NCBI GenBank assembly: GCA_015499995.1
Contig: JADNRV010000410.1
Span: forward strand, 1 to 37,971
From: Flammula alnicola
Lineage: Eukaryota > Basidiomycota > Agaricomycetes > Agaricales > Strophariaceae
Length of the DNA: 37,971 nt
Reading direction: 5' to 3'
Shown: one piece after another, positions 11,403 through 36,415 of the stretch
Position numbering within the stretch: position 1 is the first letter of the stretch
Layout: every line of letters begins with the position of its first letter
Notes under the pieces: model-generated
The model's input: only the letters and a program-made list of their open reading frames with translations
What the model was told of the DNA's origin: nothing
The model's database searches: none
Translations under genes and position numbers: made by a program

Positions 11403-14400
11403 AAGTTGATGATGTTCCATCACCCAAATCCCTGACGACTCTCAACCGCCTACTGCAGAACATGTGTGGTATTGAAACTCTTGCCTACAACGGGAAGCTC
11501 GGGCATCGCTACCACGTCAACAACATTTCTCAGATTCTCGCGCAGGTGTGTTCTATCCAGCTGGCTCATTTCATACATCGTCCTCATTTAGCTTTAGGAG
11601 ATGTCCAATCCCAAAGTAATGCCTTTCATGCATTTCTACCCCGAAGATACTGGGAAGACGCTTGACGAGACTCGGCAAGCGAGCCGATGGCTCAAAGATC
11701 TGCGACCAGAAGAAACGACTCCAATGATCCGGGTAGACGCAGACGACTACTATATCTACGAGCCAGCTATGCTCAAAGATCTTACGTTCTGTGTTCCTGA
11801 ACGGTGGTTCACCAGAAATGGTGTATTCTGGGCTCGCGCATGGAAGCTAGAGGTTCAGGTCATCAATGATGTGCGGGGATGGGTCGTTCGGAAGGACTGT
11901 GAGATAGAGGTCTCAGAACATGATTTTGCCAGGAATTTCGTGTCTCTACAAGACCAATGCGAATATTATCAGGTTCCCCATCCGTCTCTGATTCTTGGTA
12001 TGATGAATCTGTTTCTGTCTCGTGTATACTTATTTAATTCCATTTTATTAGCTGTTCGTCCAAGGTCCAAGAAGATCAACGACCCAGACCCGGACCATGA
12101 ATTCGATGAGGATGAAGATCAAGCTCGAGAGCCGCACGTCGATGATGAAGACTCCAACGATGTGGATGTCCTCTTACCATGGATGCACACAAATCCTGTA
12201 CTCGGTAACCGATGGCGTGCACTCGCAAAAGGCCACCGAACCTTGTGCTTGCCGTTATGGATGTACTGTGATGACACGTCTGGCAACCAGTCGAAGAAAT
12301 GGAATGAGCACAACAGTTTTCTGTTTACGCTTGCTGGACTGCCCCGGGAACATACTGCCAAGGAATATAACATCCACTTCCTCTGTACGTCAAATCTCGC
12401 CCCGCCGTTGGAGATGATGGATGGTGTTGTTAATCAAATCGAGTAAGGAATTCATTTTGTGTTTTCTGATTACTCTAATGTCATCATTCTAGATCAGCGC
12501 AACAAAACGGCATCTGGGCTTGGGATTGTGTACGCAAGGAACCCATCCTTATCTTTCCTACGGTCCTTGCATTACTAGGCGATAATCCCATGCACAGCGA
12601 ATTTGCCTGTCATATAGGACTTCGAGGAAAGTTCTTCTGCCGTGTATGTTGGGTCAAGGGCAGTGATGCGCAAGATGCCGCGAACATGCCCAACGTCTAC
12701 GATGAATCCCGCAACAACAGCCCTGCGCCTTCAAATGCAGGTAGCGATGCTGGGAGCATCAATGAACCTGATTCGGGTGCTACAACCTCACCTGATTTCC
12801 TCATCAATACCGCTCCTGCCACTTTAGCAGAGCCTCTCGTCAATATGACCGCACCCAACCTCCTCATCAATACCACTCGTGCCACATTGGCGCAGCCTCT
12901 CGTCAACACAACACCCGCTATCCCAATGCCACCTGAGCCTCTCGCGGGTACCAGCAAGCGCAAGAAGTTCAAAGAGAGCATGAGTGCCATGCTCAACCGT
13001 GTTTCAGCCTTCATAAAGGTATGGATTTGCCGTCTCATAAAGAATTGAAATAACCTCATATATTTTCGCTGTCTAGCCCGGAAAGCCTCGTAATAGAGAT
13101 GAAACTCAGCGCAAATTACGCTCGTATCTCACACAGGCAACTGTTATTGGCGCGAAAACCAAGTTGAAGAATTTACGCACAGAGAGCGGTATCAAAGACA
13201 CTGTACAAGAATTTCATCTTGAACGACTTTTCGCATCCTACAAAAACAAACTCGGTCCTCGAGCCAAGCAGGCGGCTCTCGACGCCGCCGTTTCAGCGCT
13301 GCCAGATGACATAACCAGTCCAGTATGGCGCCTAAGCGGTAAGTGCGGCTTCACTTTGTACAGACAGTTTACTAAAGGTTTTAACATGCCAGGTCTAGAT
13401 CCACATAAACACACTCCGGTTGAAATCCTCCACGTCATTCTGCTGGGCTTCCTCAAGTATTTCTGGCGTGATCTTGTCCAGAATCAAGTCAACGACGAGA
13501 CAAAAGTGTTACTCGCACAGCGGCTCAATAGCCTGGACGTTAACGGTCTTGGTATATCTCAACTTAGCGGAGAAACCCTAGTAAATTATGCGGGTTCTCT
13601 GACTGGTCGTGATTTTCGGGTGATCGCTCAAGTCGCGCCTTTTGTGGTATACGACATGGTGCCGGATGATGTGTTTCAAGCTTGGCTTGCGCTTTCCAAG
13701 CTCATTCCGCTTATCTGGCAGCCGGTTATCGAGGATATTGATCAGTACACGGTGCGTCACCCTGACTCTACCTTGTAGTTTGTTTCTTATCTCCCTTTCA
13801 GAAAACGTTACAACGTGAAATTGAGCATTTCCTTCTCATGACAGCTCAATGGTCCTGCGATTGGTTCAACAAATCCAAGTTCCATATTGTTCTTCACCTG
13901 CCGAAACATATTCGCCAGTTTGGACCAGCGATGCTCTTCGCAACAGAAGCTTTCGAGTCCTTCAATGCTGTGATACGAGCCAAAAGTATTCATAGCAATC
14001 GGCAGGCACCTTCTCGGGATATTGCAATGGCATTTGCGCAGGGAAACCGTGTCCGGCACCTCTTAAGTGGTGGATATTTTGCTCTGGCTGACCTCGAAGA
14101 ACCGGCTGAACTGCCACTCCAAGTCGGCCCCGAGCGCTTTTCTCACAATAACTGGCGTACGGTTGGACCTGGCCCTCTTCGCCTTCTCAACGCTGATGAT
14201 ACAGTCCAACACTACCTCGGACTTGTCGTAGCTGGTGAATCTCCAGCGTCATCATTGGGTAAGCCATGACATTCTCTTTTTCTCGTTCCATACTGATTTA
14301 ATTAACAGGAAGTTGCAAGAGGGATAAACACAAGCCCCGTCTTTTTGGGGAAACCCTTACAGGCATGCATTTGCCTCGCGTTTTACACTCTGCCGCGGGT

Positions 14401-15307
14401 CACCTTTATGTAACCAGCTCTGAGGTACACTTGTTAAATGGCGACAAGTGTCGACCTGGGCAACACGTCATTATTCAACGTCACGATGTCAACGTGCATA
14501 CTGGTCTTTCAGCCAATGTTGGACCCGCGTTTGTCGCTTGTGTTCGAGAGATCATCCAACAGCAAGGTTCTCAAAATTACAACAATAGTCAACCTGACGG
14601 TATTCTTGTTCAAACAGTTCATTCAACGGATGTAGCAACCAAATTTGAAATGCCAGCTCTCAAATATCAGGACGAATATTCATTTGTACCCTTATCCGTG
14701 AGTCTTTGAAGCATCCAGTTGAATTCACTAAAACATTTGGCAGGATATTGTTTGCACTGTCAATACACAACACAATTGCTTAGCCAACGACTGCACAACG
14801 AGTGGATTTCGTTACGTTTATCAAGAGCGCGTGCGGAGTCATCACCAACGACCCGTTGTCCAACACTTGACAAACCCGAATGACCTGATTCTCAATACAG
14901 CGCAAATGCGAGACGCCATTCATCTGCAGAAATTTCACATTCCACCAAACATCCCCGACGAATCTACCAAACAGAAAATTATACAAGAAAGTGTGGCCCG
15001 TGCTATTGATAAGAGAGATAAGAGGAGACTGGAGGCTGCAGTCACTGCAGATGGAGCTGGTGTGGGGCGTGGTCGAGGTCGTGGACGTGGACGTGGAAGA
15101 GGTTCAGGGTTGACACAGGCAATCACGCTCGCTGCAGATGGGGCTGGTGTGGCACGCGGAAGAGGTCCTGGACGTGAAAGAGGTGGGAGTTCCGATGGGA
15201 GTCAAGAAGCTGGATCAAGCATGGGTAGAGGGCAGGGTCGTGGTCGAGGACGAGGTTCTAATTCATTCTTACCCGGGGAGCTTACTCTGGACTTTTCTAT
15301 ATCATAG
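11402..15307 (+). CDS. Transposase-like multi-exon protein, 5'-truncated
   Basis: Nine exons (to 11545; 11598-11997; 12052-12442; 12493-13018; 13077-13338; 13393-13751; 13802-14258; 14309-14697; 14744-15307) join in frame to about 1,160 residues with no internal break. Landmarks, numbered from the truncated start: PLWMYCDDTSGN near 250; a CxxC block (CRVCWVKG) near 360; VEILHVILLGFLKYFWRD near 583; HWFNK-like FNKSKFHIVLHLP and FGPAMLFATEAFESFNAVIR at 715-750; then an Arg-Gly tail from about 1080. The order Asp block, CxxC, His/Glu blocks resembles CACTA/Plavaka-type transposases. From memory this is a protein type repeated in Agaricomycete genomes, but the family assignment is inference. An internal repeat (LINTxxATLAxPLVN, twice) sits in exon 4. 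The first exon has no start: an in-frame TAG lies at 11378-11380, inside the LTR-like segment, so the N-terminus has been lost. Confidence 0.7.
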
Positions 15308-22902: not shown

Positions 22903-23518
22903 ATGTATATCTCTAGCCTCATTGCAATTGTCGCCCTCACGTTCTTTACCTCTACCCAAGCGTCACCAGTGAGTCGTTATCTTTTCTGGTCGTACTACGC
23001 ATTATGCTTACATCCACCTCCGCTGCCTAGATTTCTGTCGAACTACTCCACCGCCACAATCTCGTCCACGAGATAGCAAGAAGAGTTGATGTGAGTTTCG
23101 CACTACCTACTTTTATCCCATTGACTTGACCAACACATCCTTCGTCGATCTATAGGACGCCTCTTTACCTTCCAGGAGAGACGATTTAGTCGCCCGCGTT
23201 CCACCTGGCATAGACTGGAAACGCGCTGACGACACCTCTGCGCCCGATCCGTCCAAAGACTGGAAACGAGAGGATGGTGCCACAGCCGGCCCGCCTGGCG
23301 ACTGGCGGCGAGCAAACCTCCTTCCCCTCACTCCTGGTTCTCCAGAATGGAAACGAGAGGCCGACCCCACACCCAATCCACCTGGCACAGATTGGAAGCG
23401 AGAGGACGATGCCACCGCTGCCCCTCCCTGGAAGCGAGAAAGACAAGAGACCGCTTCTCCTCCCTGGAAAAGGGACGATGCCGACATCAATTCTCCTCCC
23501 TGGAAACGAATGGATTGA
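22903..23518 (+). CDS. Secreted Kex2-processed repeat peptide precursor
   Basis: Exons 22903-22968, 23031-23090 and 23156-23518 join in phase 0 through two GTGAGT introns to 162 residues (173 if the in-frame ATG at 22870 is used). Residues 1-20 form a signal peptide (hydrophobic core IAIVALTFF, cleavage near TQA-S). A short pro-region has ARR and SRR dibasic sites. The remainder is eight copies of a motif ending Trp-(Lys/Arg)-Arg: GIDWKR, SKDWKR, GDWRR, PEWKR, TDWKR, then PPWKR three times. Cleavage by the Golgi protease Kex2 and basic trimming by Kex1 would release acidic, Pro-rich peptides of 10-13 residues, each ending in Trp, such as EDDATAAPPW or EADPTPNPPGTDW. The layout is that of fungal repeat precursors (alpha-factor type pheromones, dikaritin-type RiPPs, other KEPs), but the cores match none I know. 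No UstYa-like oxidase or peptidase gene is recognisable nearby. Confidence 0.85.
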
Positions 23519-24978
23519 CCGACATTCTTCCCTGCCCTGCACGCACATATTCAAACCCGACTCCCGCCGTAGAAGCGCGCTGTCGAATCTAGCACTCAAA
23601 ATTTGAACTAGGAGATGTTGATGCAAGGAATTGCCAGTGGTATCGCTCCAATGTCTTTGGAAGCAAGCTAAAGAAATTCCGTCGCGGTGTTACTTCTTCT
23701 CCGGATCCCTCCCGCTGCTTATCTATGGTTATTTAGTTTTTCTTGTTATTTCACCCCTTACTCATCCCTTATTCCATTGTCGTTCTGAATACGACCTATT
23801 CCTTCCCTTATGTCCTTCCTCATCCTTCTTGCCTTTTTTCAAGACGCTATCTTCCTGTATTCTATTCTCCTCCGACGAAATCTCTCCTTGCAAAATTTAT
23901 TCCATTCTTGAGAGGTATCCTTGACAGAAAATTGATGGAATGGAAGTTTTATCATGTGGAAGGTGTTTACTTTTGGCTTGCATTTTCTTCTTTCTGTCAT
24001 CCCTGTCGCCGATAGTTTGGACTCGGATCACTGTTGACAGTGAAAATGTATCACGTTAACGCGCTGCTTCATATCCCTGTGTGGTTTACGACACGCATTC
24101 CCAGCACGCTGATCTAGGGGAGTCTGTACATCCGTAACAACTTTGCTTGCTTCAATTGCTCGCTTTGAATATAATCTCTGAAATTACATCCAATGCAGTT
24201 GTGTGCACCTTCGTGCGCCATTAAACCAATCCAGATATCGCCTTCTGGACTACTCTGCTAGGTCACAGAGCGCCTTGCTCTCAAGTTGATATGCGCTAAA
24301 GAAATGTTTTCTTTTAGATTTTCTTGGTTCTGGGTTCTTCAGCAACAACATGATTTGCACCAAGAATGGCTTCTGTGCATGCTTTCAGCTGCAGAACATG
24401 TACAAGCGCCGATGATTACGTCATCCCGTCAGCAACCGGGAGCACTTGGTTGTCGGCAAACAAATCCTTCCATTGAACCGTGTTGTGTCTTCAAATCCAA
24501 ATTTCGAACGCTTTTTCTCCATGTTGACTGCAGAGAGCCTCTGAAGAAGCTGTTATTTTATCTAACAAGAACGGTCTGGCTTGCGTCGACTTCGGCATCG
24601 GAATTTAATCGATGAGTTTTTGAACTCGTAAGTCATTAAATTTCTCGCACAATGTAGTACGTATTCACCTTTTAGGCCATTTCACATCGATTGTACTGTC
24701 TAAAGGACACGAATTTAAGGAAGAATAGCTTCTTTTTGCTCGTGCTTGACCATCGATTTTCGTCGAGGGACCTTTCGGCGACTTCAACCTCTTCAGAGAG
24801 AGGGACATTATCATCAACTCCACCATTTCCGGAGCTTACAGAATCGCAGGGGCTTTGGCAGAGTAAGTTGTTCTTTTCCTCATATTCTCTTTTAACGACG
24901 TGTTATACTCCTAGTCGTCCGCCTAACGATAATATAAACTACCTCGACACATCAAAAGTATCGACGAAAATCAAATCA
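23519..24978. other. Intergenic, 3' region of precursor and 5' region of folate gene
   Basis: Pyrimidine-rich, no recognisable gene. A GTAAGT...CTCCTAG pair at 24863-24915 looks like an intron in the 5' UTR of the downstream synthase gene. Confidence 0.4.
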
Positions 24979-26740
24979 ATGTCGATAGATCTAAGTCTCG
25001 ACAGGCTTAACCAGCTGGTCAAGCACTTGCCGCCGTTCACTCGCCCTACCATCCACGTCGCAGGCACGAACGGCAAAGGCAGCGTCTCCGCCCTGCTTAC
25101 GTCCATCCTCCTTGCCTCTCATAAACCATCAGAATCACAATTTACCTCGTCCTCCGATCCTTCACGACCCTTCCGTATTGGCCGCTACAACAGTCCTCAC
25201 CTCACATCCATCCTCGATTCTATAACCATCAACAACATTCCTGTCTCTCGTTCTGTATACGACCAAGCCCGCAAAGAGGTCGAAGATGCAGATCAGAAAC
25301 ACGATACTCACCTTAGTGGGTTCGAGATTTTGACGTTGACTGCGCTTCGAATATTCGAAGACGAGCAGGTTGACATTGTGGTCCTCGAAGTCGGTATGGG
25401 CGGCCGTCTCGATGCCACGAATATTGTTCCTACTTCCTGCATCCTCATTTCGGCATTGACTGCGGTGGATTTGGACCACCAGGCCTTTCTGGGCAATACG
25501 ATAACGAAGATCAGTCAGGAGAAAGCGGGCATCGCGAGAGAGGGAAAACCGTTTGTTCTTGGGAATCAGGCGCATGATGAGGTGCAAGAGGTAGTTAGGC
25601 GAGTGGTTGGGGATGTGGGAGGGCAGGTCGTTAAGGCTGTTGATGTTAGGAGGGCGGAAGAAGTTCTGAATGAGGGTGCGGGGTTCTCGCTTCTGCCTGC
25701 ATTCTCTCCTTCCTCCGCCATGAATCAAGGAGCGCCTGGTCTTCATTCATACCCTGGTGCACAATCCGTCATTGCAAGTCTTCCATGTTTCCCAACCTCG
25801 CCCCCATTGCACACCTTGCTACCTCTGCACGGCGCCCACCAGCTGGACAACCTCGGCACTGCGCTAGGCATCATTAGTGCATTGCTGACCCACGATCTCA
25901 ACGCTTCAACTTCGCACCTGAACCTGCAAGACCGCATCACCCCAGAGACGATCGCGAAGGGTATACAGGAGGTTTCCTGGCCTGGGCGACTGTCATTCCA
26001 CACCGTAGATGTTCCACTGCCGCAAGGTGATTCGAAGTCAACACCAGGTTCCGTCCCACTGCTAGTCCTCGCGGACGGAGCACATAACCCTGCCTCAGCG
26101 AAGACGTTGGGGGCGTATATCGACAATTTGCTCGAGTTGACACTGAAGACCCTCGATTGCTCCTCATGGACTTCACCAGAGCCTATATCGGTGCCTGTAC
26201 CCATCACATTCATCCTCAGCCTCTCGCACTCGCCTCCAAAGACACCTCTCCAGACCCTTGCCCCATGTTTGCCCCTGTTTTGTCTTCCCTTGCTGTCCCT
26301 TCCAACACTCCATCCAGCCCAAAAATAACCCTCACACCGTCACTGGGTATTGCTCTCCTCCCATTTACGCCCCGGACGGTATGCCATGGGTCAAGCCTGT
26401 GCCGACTAGCATAATGCGGGGTGCAGTGGCCACGCTCGTACCAGGGCTGGAAGACGAAGATGTCTGGGTCGCGGACGAGGCTGGGCCGGCTGGCTTAGGC
26501 GAATCGGAGGAACTGGAAATTGGGAAGGACAGGAATAGCAACGAGGCATTGGAGCGGGCGTTGACGTGGGCAGCGCAGAGACATTCGCATTGGTCGTTTG
26601 ATGGAGGTGGAGGTGGAAAAAACTCTGGAGGATTTAGAGCGCAAGGAGAAGCAACCCCGGGCCTAGTGGTGCTCGCTGGGAGCTTGTACCTCGTCGCTGA
26701 CTTCTATCGAATGCTAGAAGGCGGGCCTTTGCGCGCATGA
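24979..26740 (+). CDS. Dihydrofolate synthase / folylpolyglutamate synthase (FolC/Mur ligase family)
   Basis: A cytosolic or mitochondrial ATP-dependent ligase that adds glutamate to dihydropteroate or folates. Motifs in order: HVAGTNGKGSVSA (P-loop, about residues 31-43), RYNSPHLTS, a DSITIN block, EVGMGGRLDATN, the DLDHQAFLGNT and EKAGI blocks, the HGAHQLDNLGTA block, WPGRL, and LADGAHNPASA. Yeast Fol3 shares the same order. The ATG at 24979 is followed by the SIDLSLDRLNQL start typical of the Fol3 type, which favours dihydrofolate synthase over Fpgs. No introns in the coding part. Two frame breaks occur after the DGAHN motif, at CCCC runs 26261-26264 and 26370-26373. Adding one C to each gives APMFAP and LLPFTPPDGMPWVK and a single 587-residue frame. 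I regard these as probable sequence errors. There is also an unusually long insertion region rich in Ser/Pro. Confidence 0.85.
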
Positions 26741-27280: not shown

Positions 27281-29749
27281 ATGTTGCTTCTCGTTACGTT
27301 GGTGGCACTCGCCATCCGCCAGGTCACCCCAGCGCCGTCTGCGAGCAGCGTTGGGTCTGACCTTACATTCCTCTTCCAAAACGACCTTAACTGTAAGTAA
27401 CCAATGTCTTCGACCTCTGCCACGCAACGCTAACCGCTATCATAGGGCCGACGGCTTCTGATCATGATGGGACAATCCTTATCAGCACGCCTAGCACAAA
27501 TGCCCAAGCCATCGCATCGTGCAAATCACTCAATGAAGCCTTACTGCCTACTAGTGGCATCCACTTTCATTCGGATATCACTTCACTCATGAACTATCTT
27601 GCTCTTGAGACCACTTCGCCCCAGCAGCAATTCTGGGTTGCGTCAAGTTCTTTGTCGACTTGTTCTGCCATTTCTCTGGGGAGAGGATTCAATCTGTCCA
27701 TTGCGATGCACATCTCCCGATATTCTGTTCTCAAAGTGCACCTTATAAACCAAATGTCGCCACAGACCTGAGCCCGCAATTCCAAGTCCAGGTCCACTCA
27801 AAGCAATTGACGGTTCTCGGGTAAGCTATATCTCGTTCCTCCTCTCCTACCCATTTCTCTGACGATTCTCCGCAGCACCCGAGACCATTTGTCATTCCGA
27901 TTCATAGGTATTCCGTACGCGGATCCTTTCGAGCGCTTCACATACTCCAAAGTCTTCAGCGGAACAGGAAATATCACAGCTTTGACGTACGGAGCGCATT
28001 GTGTGCAGCCTGGCAAGGCAGCGAGGATTGTCTCTTTTTGAATATTTATACCCCGTTCCTTCCTCAAGATTCCGCGAAGACGAAGGACTTGAGGCCCGTT
28101 ATGTTTTGGATTCACGGAGGAGGGTTTACAGGCGGCGAGGGAAGCGATGGTGTATACGACGGTGGGAACATGGTCAGTCGTGGCGATGTCGTTGTTGTTT
28201 CCATCAACTACCGGTAAGCCAGATAGATTGTTCACTTCGTGATGCTAATTTGTACCCCTTTATAGTCTGGGAACGTTGGGCTTCCTCGCTTTGAACGACG
28301 GCGTCACAAACGGAAACTTTGGTATTGCCGATCAGGTAAATGGACCCTTTTTGTTATCCGACGTTGACTCGCAGACGATTAACCTTGCAATGTTCGAGTA
28401 GATTACCGCTTTGCAGTGGGTTCACGACCATATTGCGGACTTCGGCGGTGATCCATCCCGCGTCACCATCTACGGACAGTCCGCTGGAGCCGGCTCTGTA
28501 CGGGCTTTACTGGCAGCCAAGCCTGCCTTCGGGCTCTTCAAAGGCGCCATTTCACAGAGCAACTTGGGTGGCTTCGGTTATGCGACTACATACACCGAAT
28601 ACTTGACAATTGAGGAGGAGTTCACTTCTTTCGGCCAGCCGACAGTTGCATCTGTTGGCTGCGCAAACGCTACTGATACTCTGGCTTGTCTCCGGGCAGT
28701 ACCGGCAATGACCCTCATTAACGCCCCGAATGCTCCCAGGTATGTTCATAAATCGTAGAATTATATCCTATGACTAAATAAGAACTCTTTTGACAGATAC
28801 ATCGTCGTCGATGGACAGTATATTACTACAAGCCATCTTGAGCTTGATGGGTCAGGACCTGCTGCTGATGCGCACGTCATGTTTGGCTGGATGAGAGACG
28901 ACGGTGCTGATTTTGTTGGCTCCTTCCCGACAGCAAGCGTAACAATATCTCAGGCACTCCTGGGCGCCGGGTAGGTTATGTGCATACCCTTTTTTATATT
29001 CAGGAGTTGACCATTTCGACAGGGTCAGCTTCAACGTCACTAATGAAATTCTGCAATCGACTTTATTCCCAATGCCCACTACAGGAAACGAGACTTGGAA
29101 TTGTACAACCTAACCAGCCGTGTCGGCACAGACGGAGAATTCAGGTGCGCCTCATTAAAGATGTTATATAATTATACTCACTATATTTCAGGTGTATCGA
29201 TCAAGCCACTCTTGTCGCTGCTGCAAAACACAAAGTATTCCCATCAATATATGCCTACCAATTTGATCGGAGCATTCGCGGCTACGAGCCCAACCCTGGG
29301 ACTTGCAATCCGCCTGCCAGTGCTGAATTCCCAAATGGTGATCCCAGTTTACCATACTTCCGGTAGATATTTCTTCAATCGAGCTTGAGCGCAAGATGCT
29401 AAAAATTTGCCACAGGTGCCATTCTGGTGAATTATATTATATGTTTGGGTCACTTGGTCAAGATTCGGTGCCATTCCGCGACTGGAATGACCTCGTTCTG
29501 TCGCAAGTGAGTGTCGACCTATGGACATCATTCGCGCGGACGTTCGATCCCAATCCAGCACCCGAATATCTTTCTGCGCGTGGATATTCCAACACAACAT
29601 TGGCATTGCGCCAAGTAGGGCACTGGGATTCGGTCACTCCATCGAGTAAGACCCCCCTGAGGATCATGGACGTGCCGCTTTCGAATTCTGCATGGCAAGA
29701 GCAGGCGCAGTGCGACTTACTGGGATACCCCTCAACGTTATTTGGATAG
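27281..29749 (+). CDS. Secreted type-B carboxylesterase/lipase with C-type-lectin-like N-domain
   Basis: Nine exons (27281-27392, 27446-27820, 27876-28213, 28266-28335, 28402-28739, 28797-28970, 29023-29144, 29192-29362, 29416-29749) give about 678 residues if three single-base gaps are filled (near 27678-27681, 28008-28012 and 29099-29102). The start at 27281 gives a signal peptide (MLLLVTLVALAI...). Residues about 40-150 carry a C-type-lectin-like pattern: A-x-x-C-x-x-LNE-x-LLP, FWVAS, then C...C...LPIFC. The esterase part shows FIGIPYA, SEDCLFLNIYTP, the oxyanion loop WIHGGGF, the nucleophile elbow GQSAGAGS, and the catalytic-His segment RCHSGELYYMFG. It would hydrolyse esters or lipids outside the cell. 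The family is the Candida rugosa lipase / type-B esterase family. The frame breaks could mean a recent pseudogene, but all splice sites and catalytic motifs are kept. Confidence 0.75.
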
Positions 29750-30579: not shown

Positions 30580-32898
30580 TCAAGTGAATACTTGGGGAGG
30601 CAAAGCGTCGTAGATCGGGCAGAGGTTATCCCAAGCAGCTGAAAACCACGATTAAGTTCAATGAGTAAAAAAGAGATGAAGCATGGATTTACTGGGAGGG
30701 TTACTGGCTGCGATCTTAGGCACATCCTCCGCCATGACGACTGCCAGGCCGCTGCGGGTAGAAAACTCATCAGATAATTCTAAGTAATACATATCACGAG
30801 GGACTTACAGAGCGAGATGCCAATCAATGTGACTATAGAACAGCATTGCATTAGGTGAGAACCGGTAGAACGCGCGACAAATTCAAGACGAACCAATGCA
30901 AGATCCAAGGGCCAGAGTTGTCCGTCTGGAAGCGCATCGTGACGTTATCCCCTGCGAATCCTGAGCTCACGACGTCGCGTTGGACGGGATTGACGTAGTT
31001 ATACACTGAGCTTCCAGCACTCCGTACAACAGAGAACGTGTGCTAAGTGGCCATGTTAGAGAATTCAAACTTCCCATGATTTCGAATAGACTTACTCCGT
31101 GAAGATGGATCGGATGCTATAAAGTTCTCCTTGTCAGTCCCGAAATGCGAAACAACAAAAATAGATCGTTCTTACAGGGCTGCCGACGGCTCCGCCAGGA
31201 ATGGATATTTCGATGACTTTGTTGGGAGGCAAAACATACACTGATCCCGGAGGAAGCAAGTCTTGAGCGGTTTGTGCGCCGCTCATGATTTGGAGCAAAA
31301 CCGGAACGCTGGGCGGGATAAATGTAGCTCCGTTTACCGTAAACTGAAGGGTTGTGAAATCAAATACGATGTCGAGATTGATGTTCACATCAGCAGCGCC
31401 GGGCGTAGCAATTCCAGGAGCGGCTGCGTTAACAAGGGGATGGAGATTTGTCTCGACCAACGGGTTCGTGCTCGACGAGTTTGTCGTCGGGTCGACGGTG
31501 GGCGCTTCCCAATAACGAAGAATCGCGGAATTAACACCGCCGTCGAAAGTAAGGGTGCCAGAATTGGGCAGGGCACGAACCCAGTAGTTCGAGACCGGCT
31601 GGTTGGTGTTCAAGACGAAAGAATAGCGCTGTCCAACGTAGATTTGGATAGAATCGACGGTGAGTGGCTGCACATTAACACCGTCAACTTCGATGATCGT
31701 CTAAATGAAAGACGCATCAACTCCCTTGCTTATTGTTCGCGATAAGTAGACTAAGAACTAACCAAGGTATGTCCATCAATTGAGAACACATAGTTGGGAT
31801 CACAGGAAATAGAAATCAGGCGGAATCGGTATCGCTTGTTTGGCAGGACCCTGATGACTGTGAGCGGGACGGTAGGTCCACCAGAATAGCGGCCTTTTCC
31901 GTTAATGAGGGTTGCGTCTGCCGTGGGGACGAGACCGGCTGACGGGGCAGGTGTGTGATACCTAGAAACCCATGTCAGAATAAGCGCTGGGGTGAATATG
32001 TCCTCATACCAATCCGCGAGAGTGATGATGGTAGAGTCTGTCACCGAAAATAAGAAGATGAGATCACGGAGATTTAAAAAAGTATGTTATCGTCTCACCA
32101 TCATCGAAGTCATATCTGACAGAAAATGAGGGTATCAATTCAAGAATACCAAGATAGCAATTTGTTATATTCTGACGTACTTGGATCGGTGAGGGTCGTG
32201 TGGGTCATACACAACAAGCGGACCTCTGAGGCCGTCGCAGTACTGCGTAGCTAAATAGGATGTCGGAGATGAGAACTCGGTATGACATGACAGTGATCTT
32301 GATGTAACTTACAATGATGTGAATGGTACCAGAATGTCCCTGCTTGGTCTGGGACTGAGAACTGGTACAAGAAGGAGTGTCCCGGAGCGATAGGACACTG
32401 TGTAACGCCGACTGGACCGTCGGCCCAACTGCTTCCTTCTTGGAACAAGCCATGCCAATGCTATGCATAACGAGGAAATGTTAACCGGTGACGCGTAGGA
32501 GCCTCCAAATAAGACTTACGATACTAGTACTCGTCAACATGGCCGTGTCGGTCAATTCGTCGACCACATTCAGATGGAATGTGCTGCCCTAATTTTTAAC
32601 GAGGCTTCAATGCTAAGACAGTGGAATTGCAATGCTAATAAACATACCTTCAAGCCAGTAATAAGGGGACCGGGAAACGCCACTGAGCTCTCGGTGCCTC
32701 CGGCAAGGACGGTCCTAAGAGTTGCATGAGAGCATTTTTTATAGAGGTAGGTCAACGTTTATGGAAAGCAACATACGTGCGATTAAAGCCATCGGGTTGG
32801 ATGTATTTGTTCTTGATGTATAAGTTAGCGTTGGGGCCTATAGAAGCATAAGCGCCCACGACGACAGAGAGTCCGACAAGGGCTGAGAGTGAGAGCAT
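30580..32898 (-). CDS. Laccase (multicopper oxidase, EC 1.10.3.2)
   Basis: A secreted blue copper oxidase of phenols and lignin-type substrates. Fourteen minus-strand exons, from 32898 to 30580, join in phase to 518 residues without a break; four are micro-exons of 17, 21, 24 and 28 nt. The signal peptide is [18 protein letters not shown]. All four copper signatures are present: HWHGLFQ (L1), [17 protein letters not shown] (L2), HPIHLHGH (L3) and [13 protein letters not shown] (L4). The type-1 axial position, ten residues after the L4 Cys, is Leu. The length fits Agaricomycete laccases (500-530). In L2 the usual HSHLSTQ is HSHHSTQ. It is convergent with the esterase and lies back to back with the small secreted-protein gene at 33539. 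No regulatory site (MRE or XRE) was identified with certainty. Confidence 0.93.
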
Positions 32899-33874: not shown

Positions 33875-35480
33875 GGAAACAACAGAAACAGTAAGCATCG
33901 TACACAGCTTCTTAACAAAGCGCTGACAAGGTGGACGCACCCAGTTGTTTAGTAGTAGTCGCCGGCTTGAGATTTTAGTACGATTGGATTGCATTTGTTG
34001 AATTAATGAAAACACTTCTTTGAATGTGTCTTGAGCCCCAATATTTTTTAAAGGAATGCGAAGATGAGATGCTGAAGGAGAATGCTTTACGTTGGTTTTG
34101 CGCCAATGTGACATTCAAGCGTGACTCACTGTAACCTTGAACATCATCATGGTTTGCGCCATTAAAGAGTTCGTAAGTCTTACTGATTGTTGGGAAGTAG
34201 GTCTGGTTCTTCGCCCACAGCTGGAATGTTGAATCGAAGCAACACCTCGGCGGCTGACCGATCAGACCAGGCAGTGACAAGAGGCGAAAATTCATCTACG
34301 CAGATCGCGATGCACAGGTACATTCCGAACAGCAAGGCTCTCCCACTGTCCAGAGGCCCATTCCTGGCCTTCATGTGGGCAGTAATAATACTTCGGGACC
34401 GACAATCGTAGGATCGCAGAAAAGTTGACGGAGATGTAGAACCTCCACGGTGATAGCACCCTAGTCCGGGGGACACATTTGACAACGCCGACAAAAAGAG
34501 ACCGCAAAACTGTTTCATGAGAGTTTTCCTGGGGACGCCCGAAAGCTGCCATAAAGTGTCAAATGCACGATTGACTGGAATCTTGACAATCCGTGTGTCT
34601 TTCTCCAAGGGGATCATTGGAACTGGTGATCAGAGTCTATTTGTCAAATCAGGGTGGATATGTTCTTACCGTTGGAACGAGCAGTTTGGGAGATTGAACA
34701 GAAGCAATAGCAGCACAAAAGGAACGGCAGCTATCGATTGATTTCCTTATCATCCAAGCTTTCAGAATCTGGAAGCCTGAAGGAGAGAGTTGTGCCTTGA
34801 GAAAAAAGAAAGCAGGACAAGCCTCAAGACAGCATTTTCGTAGGAGGGTGTTGACAAACACGAACAAACTTGTACCCATCGTCGAGCGGACTCAAATACC
34901 CAGAAATCTACCAAAACCTATTAAACCTATCTTAAATTGGTTCCGCAAGTTACTAAGCAGACTTAAATTTCTCGATCTGTATACGATCGACTCGGAGTCT
35001 GCGAAGTCATGCACCTTCTTTCGAACACTGGCACTCTGGCAGTGGTCAACTTGAAGCAGATCAAAGTATGGCACATGAAAAAAAGCAAAAGCATCAGGTT
35101 TCACCCTTGACACAACTTACCCCATCAGCGTACAGCGTATGAATTAGGAACTGCCCTCTATAAATGGCTCTCAGAGGCCTTGTTCTCTAAATATGAAGTG
35201 GTAAGTATCAAAGATTCGTCAGTTACCTACGATAAACATCATCAAATCGTCATGTGGATCACGACTCCTAGCAATGGCTCACCGCCGTGTCAAACGAGGG
35301 TTGAGGGCGCCAGTGACCCACACCACCGTGGAAAACCCTAAGCCCATGCCTACTTTAAATCTCGAAATTAAAGCGAGTCTTGCTCTTCTCAAAGTGCTAT
35401 CTAGTATACGGTTGTTATCATTCGCCAGTGCATCCGTTCGCACTCCACGATTTCTCACGAGTCACGACAATTAATGACAG
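33875..35480. other. Region without a convincing gene
   Basis: Overlapping frames of up to 145 codons exist on the minus strand between 33975 and 34879. None can be spliced into a recognisable protein, and all shift frame repeatedly. This may be a decayed gene. A TATAAA at 35159 precedes the F-box gene region. Confidence 0.35.
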
Positions 35481-36415
35481 ATGCCAGAGGAACGCGTCAA
35501 CGACACACCGCCAGCAAACATTACGGATTTACCCAATGAAGTTATCGTGAAAATATTCTCTGCTGGTACTGAAATCTGCCAGTGGAAGACTACTCGGCCC
35601 CAGGAATTTCCCTTTCCCATTCTCGTTTCAGATGTCAGTTCACATTGGCGTCTTCTCGCCCAAAGCACGCCGAATCTTTGGGCGTTCATGGTTCCTCCAT
35701 TACATAAAGACGAGGATACGTGCCTTTCCCAGACTTCGAAATGGCTGGAAAGGTCTGGAGCCCTGCTCGTTTCTGTGGTATTAGATGGCACAATGGCCTC
35801 TCCAAGCCGCACGGCTACTCTCGCTTCGTTACTAGAAAATGCCGACAGTAGAGTACGGCGACTGGACATATGGGCCTACGACTCCTTGGCCGTCCGCAAT
35901 TGTCTCCCCAGCCTCTTTAACACCTCCAACAACTGTCCCTCTGTTTCCACGACCATCCTGATATTCGGTCCTCCTTGGAAACACCGAGCGCGCATGGGAT
36001 CGGGCTCTAGTCTTTCCAGCCTGACAAAGCTCAGGGTTCTAGGCGTAATCACTCCCAATATTCCAAACCTTACCTCTCTGACGGAATAGAACTTTCGCAT
36101 GAGCCATCGCGACGTACATGCACTGTCGTGACTTCTCATCTCACAAATTTGGTGCTCGATGGGCTGGTCCCCATCACACCACCAATCCCTGCCGAACGCC
36201 CTCGTACTCAAGCAAATTCGCTACGCTCCATCGCCGTGAAGTCCAACGGAATGAAAGATCCTTCTGCTTTCTACATATTCCAGTTGCTCATAATTCCCAT
36301 ACCTGGAGCTGGAGGGCACGCTCTTCACATGCTCCATCTTCGCGCCATCAATATCTTCCTCAAAAATCGAGACCCTGATGGTATCACACTATACGCAATT
36401 CTCTTTTCTTTCTAA
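35481..36415 (+). CDS. F-box protein with one frame break
   Basis: The ATG at 35481 starts a protein with an F-box at about residues 13-60: ITDLPNEVIVKIFSAG, a gap, then VSDVSSHWRLLAQSTPNLW. F-box proteins bind Skp1 in SCF ubiquitin ligases and choose substrates through their C-terminal region. The frame stops at a TAG after LTSLTE (about 36087). One extra base at GGAATAG restores a continuous frame (IELSHEP... then TSHLTNLVLDGLVPI) to a stop near 36415, about 311 residues in total. The C-terminal part has Leu-rich repeat-like segments (LTKLRVLGVIT, LTNLVLDGL). No introns seen. Agaricomycetes carry hundreds of such F-box genes, so no specific role can be inferred. Confidence 0.7.

Follow-up and report, generated by a model that had tools for sequence, protein, structure and literature searches.

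The window, the whole 37,971-base stretch of DNA that was analysed and the entirety of contig C347 in an assembly of 74.4 Mb and 861 contigs, carries on its forward strand the gene of a tryptophan-ended agaricomycete KEX2-processed repeat protein (KEP) that lacks the Ste13 feature seen in the 490115 type and whose products are putative. We favour, with a probability of roughly 0.8, the reading that the gene encodes a secreted Kex2-type precursor which would be cut and Kex1-trimmed into up to eight linear peptides ending in tryptophan, likely extracellular signals. The signal peptide (judged by eye), the splicing, and the cleavage, trimming and secretion of this precursor are predicted from the DNA and its translation. 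The precursor would be secreted by way of the predicted signal peptide, Kex2 would cut after each Lys/Arg-Arg pair, and Kex1 would remove the basic residues to leave at most eight short linear peptides with a free terminal tryptophan. These peptides may be signals to other hyphae or to other organisms, with the Trp end as the recognised part. We favour this role but regard it as speculative, a guess, because in the parts of Vogt et al. 2022 (PMC9769878) drawn on here and below, the knockouts of six Coprinopsis KEPs are given as having no phenotype.

The three-exon, two-intron gene that the sequence-only reading had proposed was recovered at the same coordinates by spliced translation. The reading frame starts with the ATG at 22903, ends with the stop codon at 23516-23518, and is 489 nt long when spliced (162 amino acids). 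Neither intron has a length divisible by three, and both follow the pattern GTGAGT...AG. The gene is laid out as follows.

22903-22968, forward strand: exon 1, signal peptide (MYISSLIAIVALTFFTSTQA, judged by eye) and the residues S-P, from the spliced translation
22969-23030, forward strand: intron 1, GTGAGT...CTAG, 62 nt, phase 0, junction spanned by the alignments of two relatives
23031-23090, forward strand: exon 2, pro-region ISVELLHRHNLVHEIARRVD, from the spliced translation
23091-23155, forward strand: intron 2, GTGAGT...ATAG, 65 nt, phase 0
23156-23518, forward strand: exon 3, repeat region (eight W[KR]R sites) and TGA stop codon

Two related proteins, one from Hebeloma (P0001) and one from Crassisporium (P0006), support the splice model: their alignments run through the exon 1/2 junction without a break (QASP-ISVELL / QALP-VSVEVL / HASP-ISVELL). 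Over the first 28 residues the leader is identical to the Hebeloma relative at 21 positions and to the Crassisporium relative at 18. Its N-terminal 20 residues are hydrophobic, end in STQA, are similar in the relatives and appear signal-like by eye.

The signal peptide (by eye), pro-region and eight Trp-Lys/Arg-Arg sites expected from the first inspection were all present. The sites lie at residues 63, 78, 92, 107, 122, 134, 146 and 158 (seven WKR, one WRR), and past the signal peptide each of the eight tryptophans directly precedes a dibasic pair. Conversely, Trp stands before eight of the ten KR/RR sites, the remaining two being RR pairs in the pro-region. Shuffling residues 43-162 gave at most three W[KR]R sites in 200,000 trials, compared to the eight observed. 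The window holds 77 stop-to-stop frames of 100 codons or more; 75 of them lack such a site, one has a single site and one has eight. In silico cutting at the sites yielded eight different peptides of 10-13 residues, in each of which Asp/Glu outnumber Lys/Arg; the ending is D/E-W in five and PPW in three, so that all counts agree with those proposed before. The precursor's own C-terminus reads ...WKRMD and is not Trp. The predicted peptides are listed below.

23180-23218, forward strand: peptide 1, DDLVARVPPGIDW, then KR; in silico cut
23225-23263, forward strand: peptide 2, ADDTSAPDPSKDW, then KR; in silico cut
23270-23305, forward strand: peptide 3, EDGATAGPPGDW, then RR; in silico cut
23312-23350, forward strand: peptide 4, ANLLPLTPGSPEW, then KR; in silico cut
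23357-23395, forward strand: peptide 5, EADPTPNPPGTDW, then KR; the sole core with an XA/XP (Ste13-like) start
23402-23431, forward strand: peptide 6, EDDATAAPPW, then KR; in silico cut
23438-23467, forward strand: peptide 7, ERQETASPPW, then KR; in silico cut
23474-23503, forward strand: peptide 8, DDADINSPPW, then KR and a two-residue tail MD

As no two of the eight cores are identical, processing would release not many copies of a single peptide but a set of variants with two endings, x-D/E-W and P-P-W. The cores had been described as related though varied, and they proved so: stripped of Trp and the dibasic pair they form 13 similar pairs, compared to a mean of 5.8 in 300 shuffles, only one of which reached 13. 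With their tails, all eight cores have at least five partners at 40% or higher local identity over six or more residues; without Trp and tail each keeps at least one partner, and seven of eight keep at least two. Our own alignment script, not that of Vogt et al., thus found in the window precursor what their similarity criterion for KEPs describes (PMC9769878), namely repeated cores between dibasic Kex2 sites with at least one core similar to two others. The Ste13 feature of the 490115 type was absent, as an XA/XP start occurs in one core (EADPTPNP...) and not in the other seven. The eight W[KR]R motifs are written in five different codon spellings, and a DNA-level repeat finder returned one short array only (23393-23469, period 36, 2.1 copies, 80% matches). 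This indicates that most of the repeat array is not a fresh duplication. The window protein had no Pfam match at E ≤ 0.001; when 14 members were scanned at E ≤ 0.1, it matched only RDM3_C (0.014, below the family cut-off), and one member matched DUF7289 (0.051). NCBIfam gave no match at E ≤ 0.1 for the three proteins scanned. In our judgement the precursor would be disordered.

A search with the single sequence found three proteins, the best of which was the Hebeloma cylindrosporum protein M413DRAFT_448789 (P0001; E 3.5e-18, 39% identity over 93% of the query). This protein, annotated as hypothetical, also has eight W[KR]R sites; its cores and those of the window precursor are not conserved one to one. 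A four-row profile made of the window protein and the three matches, scored against the 7,997 candidates with the most shared words, found 14 proteins at E ≤ 1. Eleven of the 14 have E < 0.01, and three (P0001-P0003) are rows of the profile itself. The named matches belong to Hebeloma, Laccaria, Crassisporium, Favolaschia, Rhizoctonia (two) and Volvariella, with weak ones in Lyophyllum and Mycena (E 0.075 and 0.24). A composite query of published Trp-ended cores added 14 proteins at E ≤ 10 (9 at E < 0.01); one of the 14, from Pleurotus pulmonarius, contains the published core MSGVAADW. The absence of similar repeat proteins from all relatives, which the sequence-only reading had named as grounds for giving it up, is thus contradicted by Hebeloma, Crassisporium, Laccaria, Volvariella and others. 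The protein matches suggest that the genome is that of an agaric close to Hebeloma and Crassisporium.

Past residue 20, Trp precedes 73 of 87 dibasic sites in the profile set (n = 14) and 59 of 68 in the composite-query set (n = 14), a placement that is partly selected, as the shared words and the profile contain W-K-R and the composite query was made of Trp-ended cores. Counted from the tryptophans, 84 of 87 in the profile set and 64 of 73 in the composite-query set stand before a dibasic pair or are the last residue. Tryptophan as the last residue, which is selected much less, yet is shared by two of the profile rows and the composite query, was found in 11 of 14 proteins of the profile set and 5 of 14 of the composite-query set (P0009 and P0010 are labelled partial). 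Among the NCBI-named relatives the last residue is Trp in 12 of 15, the exceptions being P0001, P0015 and P0021; three of these twelve (P0013, P0014 and P0026) belong to the matches with E > 0.01 (P0012-P0014 and P0024-P0028). Such natural ends are what one would expect of precursors whose mature products finish in a free Trp, and they suggest that this free end is the part that carries the function. The ends of the profile set are of the P-x-W type in 75 of 84 cases and of the x-D/E-W type in 9; the composite-query set is more mixed (28 P-x-W, 24 x-D/E-W, 12 neither; n = 64).

The sequence-only reading had seen in the gene a possibly new peptide class, without precedent among precursors for a constant C-terminal Trp like this. 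Its Kex2-type repeat precursor, constant Trp and agaricomycete relatives stand; the new class is rejected, because Vogt et al. 2022 (PMC9769878) had already described agaricomycete KEPs with cores ending in Trp, and their published peptides supply the precedent. According to the same parts of that paper, cores that end in tryptophan are found in many KEPs of basidiomycetes, and peptides ending in Trp, including SGTGEASAADW, SGVAADW and GPPAPSW, were detected by mass spectrometry in Coprinopsis, Lentinula (shiitake) and Pleurotus (oyster mushroom). They were found as linear peptides, two of those from Coprinopsis in culture supernatant. GPPAPSW and DDDPEGPPAPSW derive from the C-terminus of KEP 447393 (PMC9769878), which fits the natural Trp ends counted among the relatives. 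A similar KEP, perhaps P0006 and perhaps another protein, is mentioned there for Crassisporium. Trp-ended KEP peptides are thus measured products of edible and model mushrooms for which, as described there, no function has been found so far. Surveys of KEPs across fungi have been published by Umemura 2020 (PMC7329392) and Le Marquer et al. 2019 (PMC6339444), the latter, in the part drawn on here, proposing hormone-like roles for KEPs with Ste13 motifs. Among the titles listed by our literature searches, none besides Vogt et al. 2022 was on Trp-ended KEPs.

Like the window precursor, the KEPs of Vogt et al. (Coprinopsis 490115 and 447393, Lentinula 2599, Pleurotus 1091723) have a signal peptide, cores before KR/RR and Trp ends, and the published -ADW and -PSW ends, on products found to be linear, are close to the -DW and -PPW of the window; the comparison was made through the published cores and the proteins fetched with them. 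The window precursor differs in that its eight cores are all different and two end types are mixed, and in having XA/XP after the dibasic site in one of eight cores, whereas 490115 is described as having such starts, and Pleurotus as having them in repeated units (PMC9769878). Measured against those parts of Vogt et al., what the present analysis adds is the natural Trp ends, the two endings within one precursor, and three sister precursors among which the Ste13-type start varies.

The sisters emerged when the genome was searched with the Crassisporium relative P0006, which led to two further loci, KEP-B and KEP-C, each on two contigs.

C290:92076-92390, reverse strand: KEP-B (locus L031; the copy on C505 is L032), eight W[KR]R units
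C87:37434-37742, reverse strand: KEP-C (locus L033; the copy on C667 is L034), D-W type units

The genome thus holds at least three Trp-ended precursors. The units of KEP-B are mostly DAAPTPPGWRR-like, with Ala or Pro at the second position in all seven cores counted (an XA/XP ladder). KEP-C has units such as SDNEARGGVDWRR, an XA/XP start in none of eight, and ...ERASDW at its stop codon, so that its last residue is Trp, the one such case among the three precursors of this genome. Read by eye, KEP-B and KEP-C each have, like the window gene, a signal-like exon and after it an intron in phase 0. The two KEP-B contigs are 99.9% identical over 3.2 kb with zero substitutions, which suggests that one haplotype was possibly assembled twice. 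Together, the three sister precursors separate the possible determinants: all keep Trp, but they differ in the ending (P-x-W or D-W) and in whether they have the Ste13-type start.

Genome queries with P0011, P0017 and P0026 gave no further clear precursor locus. The KEP-B query gave 18 genome matches. Fourteen fall outside the loci of the precursors, and 13 of these 14 contain internal stop codons. In the loci of six of the 14, and at weak matches on C126, C257 and C29, the open frames each contain one W[KR]R or none. Short-unit repetitive DNA with internal stop codons at C30:119125-119378 (locus L039; best on C30, 5.5e-5), and also on C174, C28 and C151, weakly matches the KEP-B query.

The genome carries a kexin-like gene, together with members of the broader families to which Kex1 and Ste13 belong, as judged by homology. 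Of six P-domain matches, one lies at a locus that encodes a kexin-like catalytic part as well (E 5.3e-68 against a solved kexin). There were 43 matches to Peptidase_S10, a family wider than Kex1, and nine to DPPIV_N, which is wider than Ste13.

A second copy of the window gene lies on contig C214, with 98.2% identity over 6,021 aligned columns, and is read as the other haplotype. Between the two coding sequences there are four silent changes in 117.7 silent sites and three replacement changes in 368.3 replacement sites, seven substitutions in all. The replacement/silent rate ratio is 0.24, and the chance of three replacements among seven is 0.064, a weak bias. None of the seven falls inside a W[KR]R motif. 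The C214 copy also has a broken frame.

23344, forward strand: one base missing in the C214 copy, frame shifted after the third W site

Downstream of the deletion the W[KR]R codons of C214 are retained in another frame. Nine indel events, including a single C in the C run at 26261, separate the copies within 6 kb, which makes indel errors in the assembly plausible, not shown; the frame break may be a real null allele or an assembly error. This deletion, together with the differences among all eight cores, would suit a decaying gene with one copy broken and its repeat array being lost. We consider decay highly unlikely, as the C347 copy is intact, no substitution touches a W[KR]R motif, C214 keeps its downstream motif codons, and the Hebeloma relative likewise has eight sites; the indel count also leaves room for an assembly error.

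Two other readings accept the precursor and assign its products differently. A precursor of the dikaritin type, with Kex2-released cores cross-linked by UstYa-type (DUF3328) oxidases and Trp as the modified residue, shares with the window precursor the signal peptide and the Kex2 repeat layout known from ustiloxin, phomopsin and victorin, and the genome has 23 UstYa-family matches (E ≤ 0.001). However, none of the 23 matches listed lies on C347, where about 23 kb upstream and 14 kb downstream of the gene are seen, on C214, or on the contigs of KEP-B and KEP-C; a dikaritin cluster at the window locus was therefore rejected. In addition, the cores contain neither Tyr nor Cys, and the published Trp-ended KEP peptides are linear (PMC9769878, in the parts used here), which leaves the dikaritin reading with very little probability. 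A structural role appears improbable as well. There the product would be a secreted or wall-bound repeat protein with a surface role like that of Rep1, its repeats structural and its peptides not soluble signals. The Pro-rich repeats of the window precursor and the Ustilago Rep1 peptides, which are KEP-derived and form amyloid-like fibrils (PMC9769878), speak for this; but in our judgement the short, acidic, Pro-rich cores are unlike fibril formers, the Trp-terminated relatives fit a free mature C-terminus, and the two Coprinopsis peptides were recovered from culture supernatant.

A wider extension of the favoured reading, which we put forward as doubtful, is an agaricomycete extracellular peptide code in which the free P-x-W or x-D-W Trp end is recognised and the core is free to vary, the peptides acting as alpha-pheromone-like hormones on a receptor new to basidiomycetes. 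It is suggested by the at least three precursors in one genome (one mixed, one with P-x-W and a Ste13 ladder, one with D-W), many of such precursors stopping exactly at Trp. Ascomycete alpha-pheromone precursors resemble the window precursor in having a signal peptide and Kex2-separated repeats, and Le Marquer et al., where they treat alpha-pheromones, describe a C-terminal PCW motif as well conserved in Fusarium and other Sordariomycetes (PMC6339444). The likeness is one of layout, and just one core of the window precursor has the XA/XP start. Vogt et al. describe the mating pheromones of basidiomycetes as prenylated and a-type (PMC9769878). A STE2-family search gave no match in the genome and likewise none in the control genomes.

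No RNA family or tRNA was found within the window, and its remaining length holds several other frames. A run of open frames at 11598-15307 (forward strand), three of which were scanned and had no Pfam match, may belong to a basidiomycete DNA transposon, which it resembles. The long frame at 24676-26328 (forward strand) has a weak match to the Mur ligase middle domain, below the Pfam cut-off, and differs between the copies by the one C at 26261, near its end; we take it to resemble folylpolyglutamate synthase. Carboxylesterase exons lie at 27825-29749 (forward strand), and laccase exons (multicopper oxidase; E 4.9e-80 to a solved laccase) at 31134-32086 (reverse strand). A weak F-box-like match, below the cut-off, is located at 35478-36089 (forward strand).
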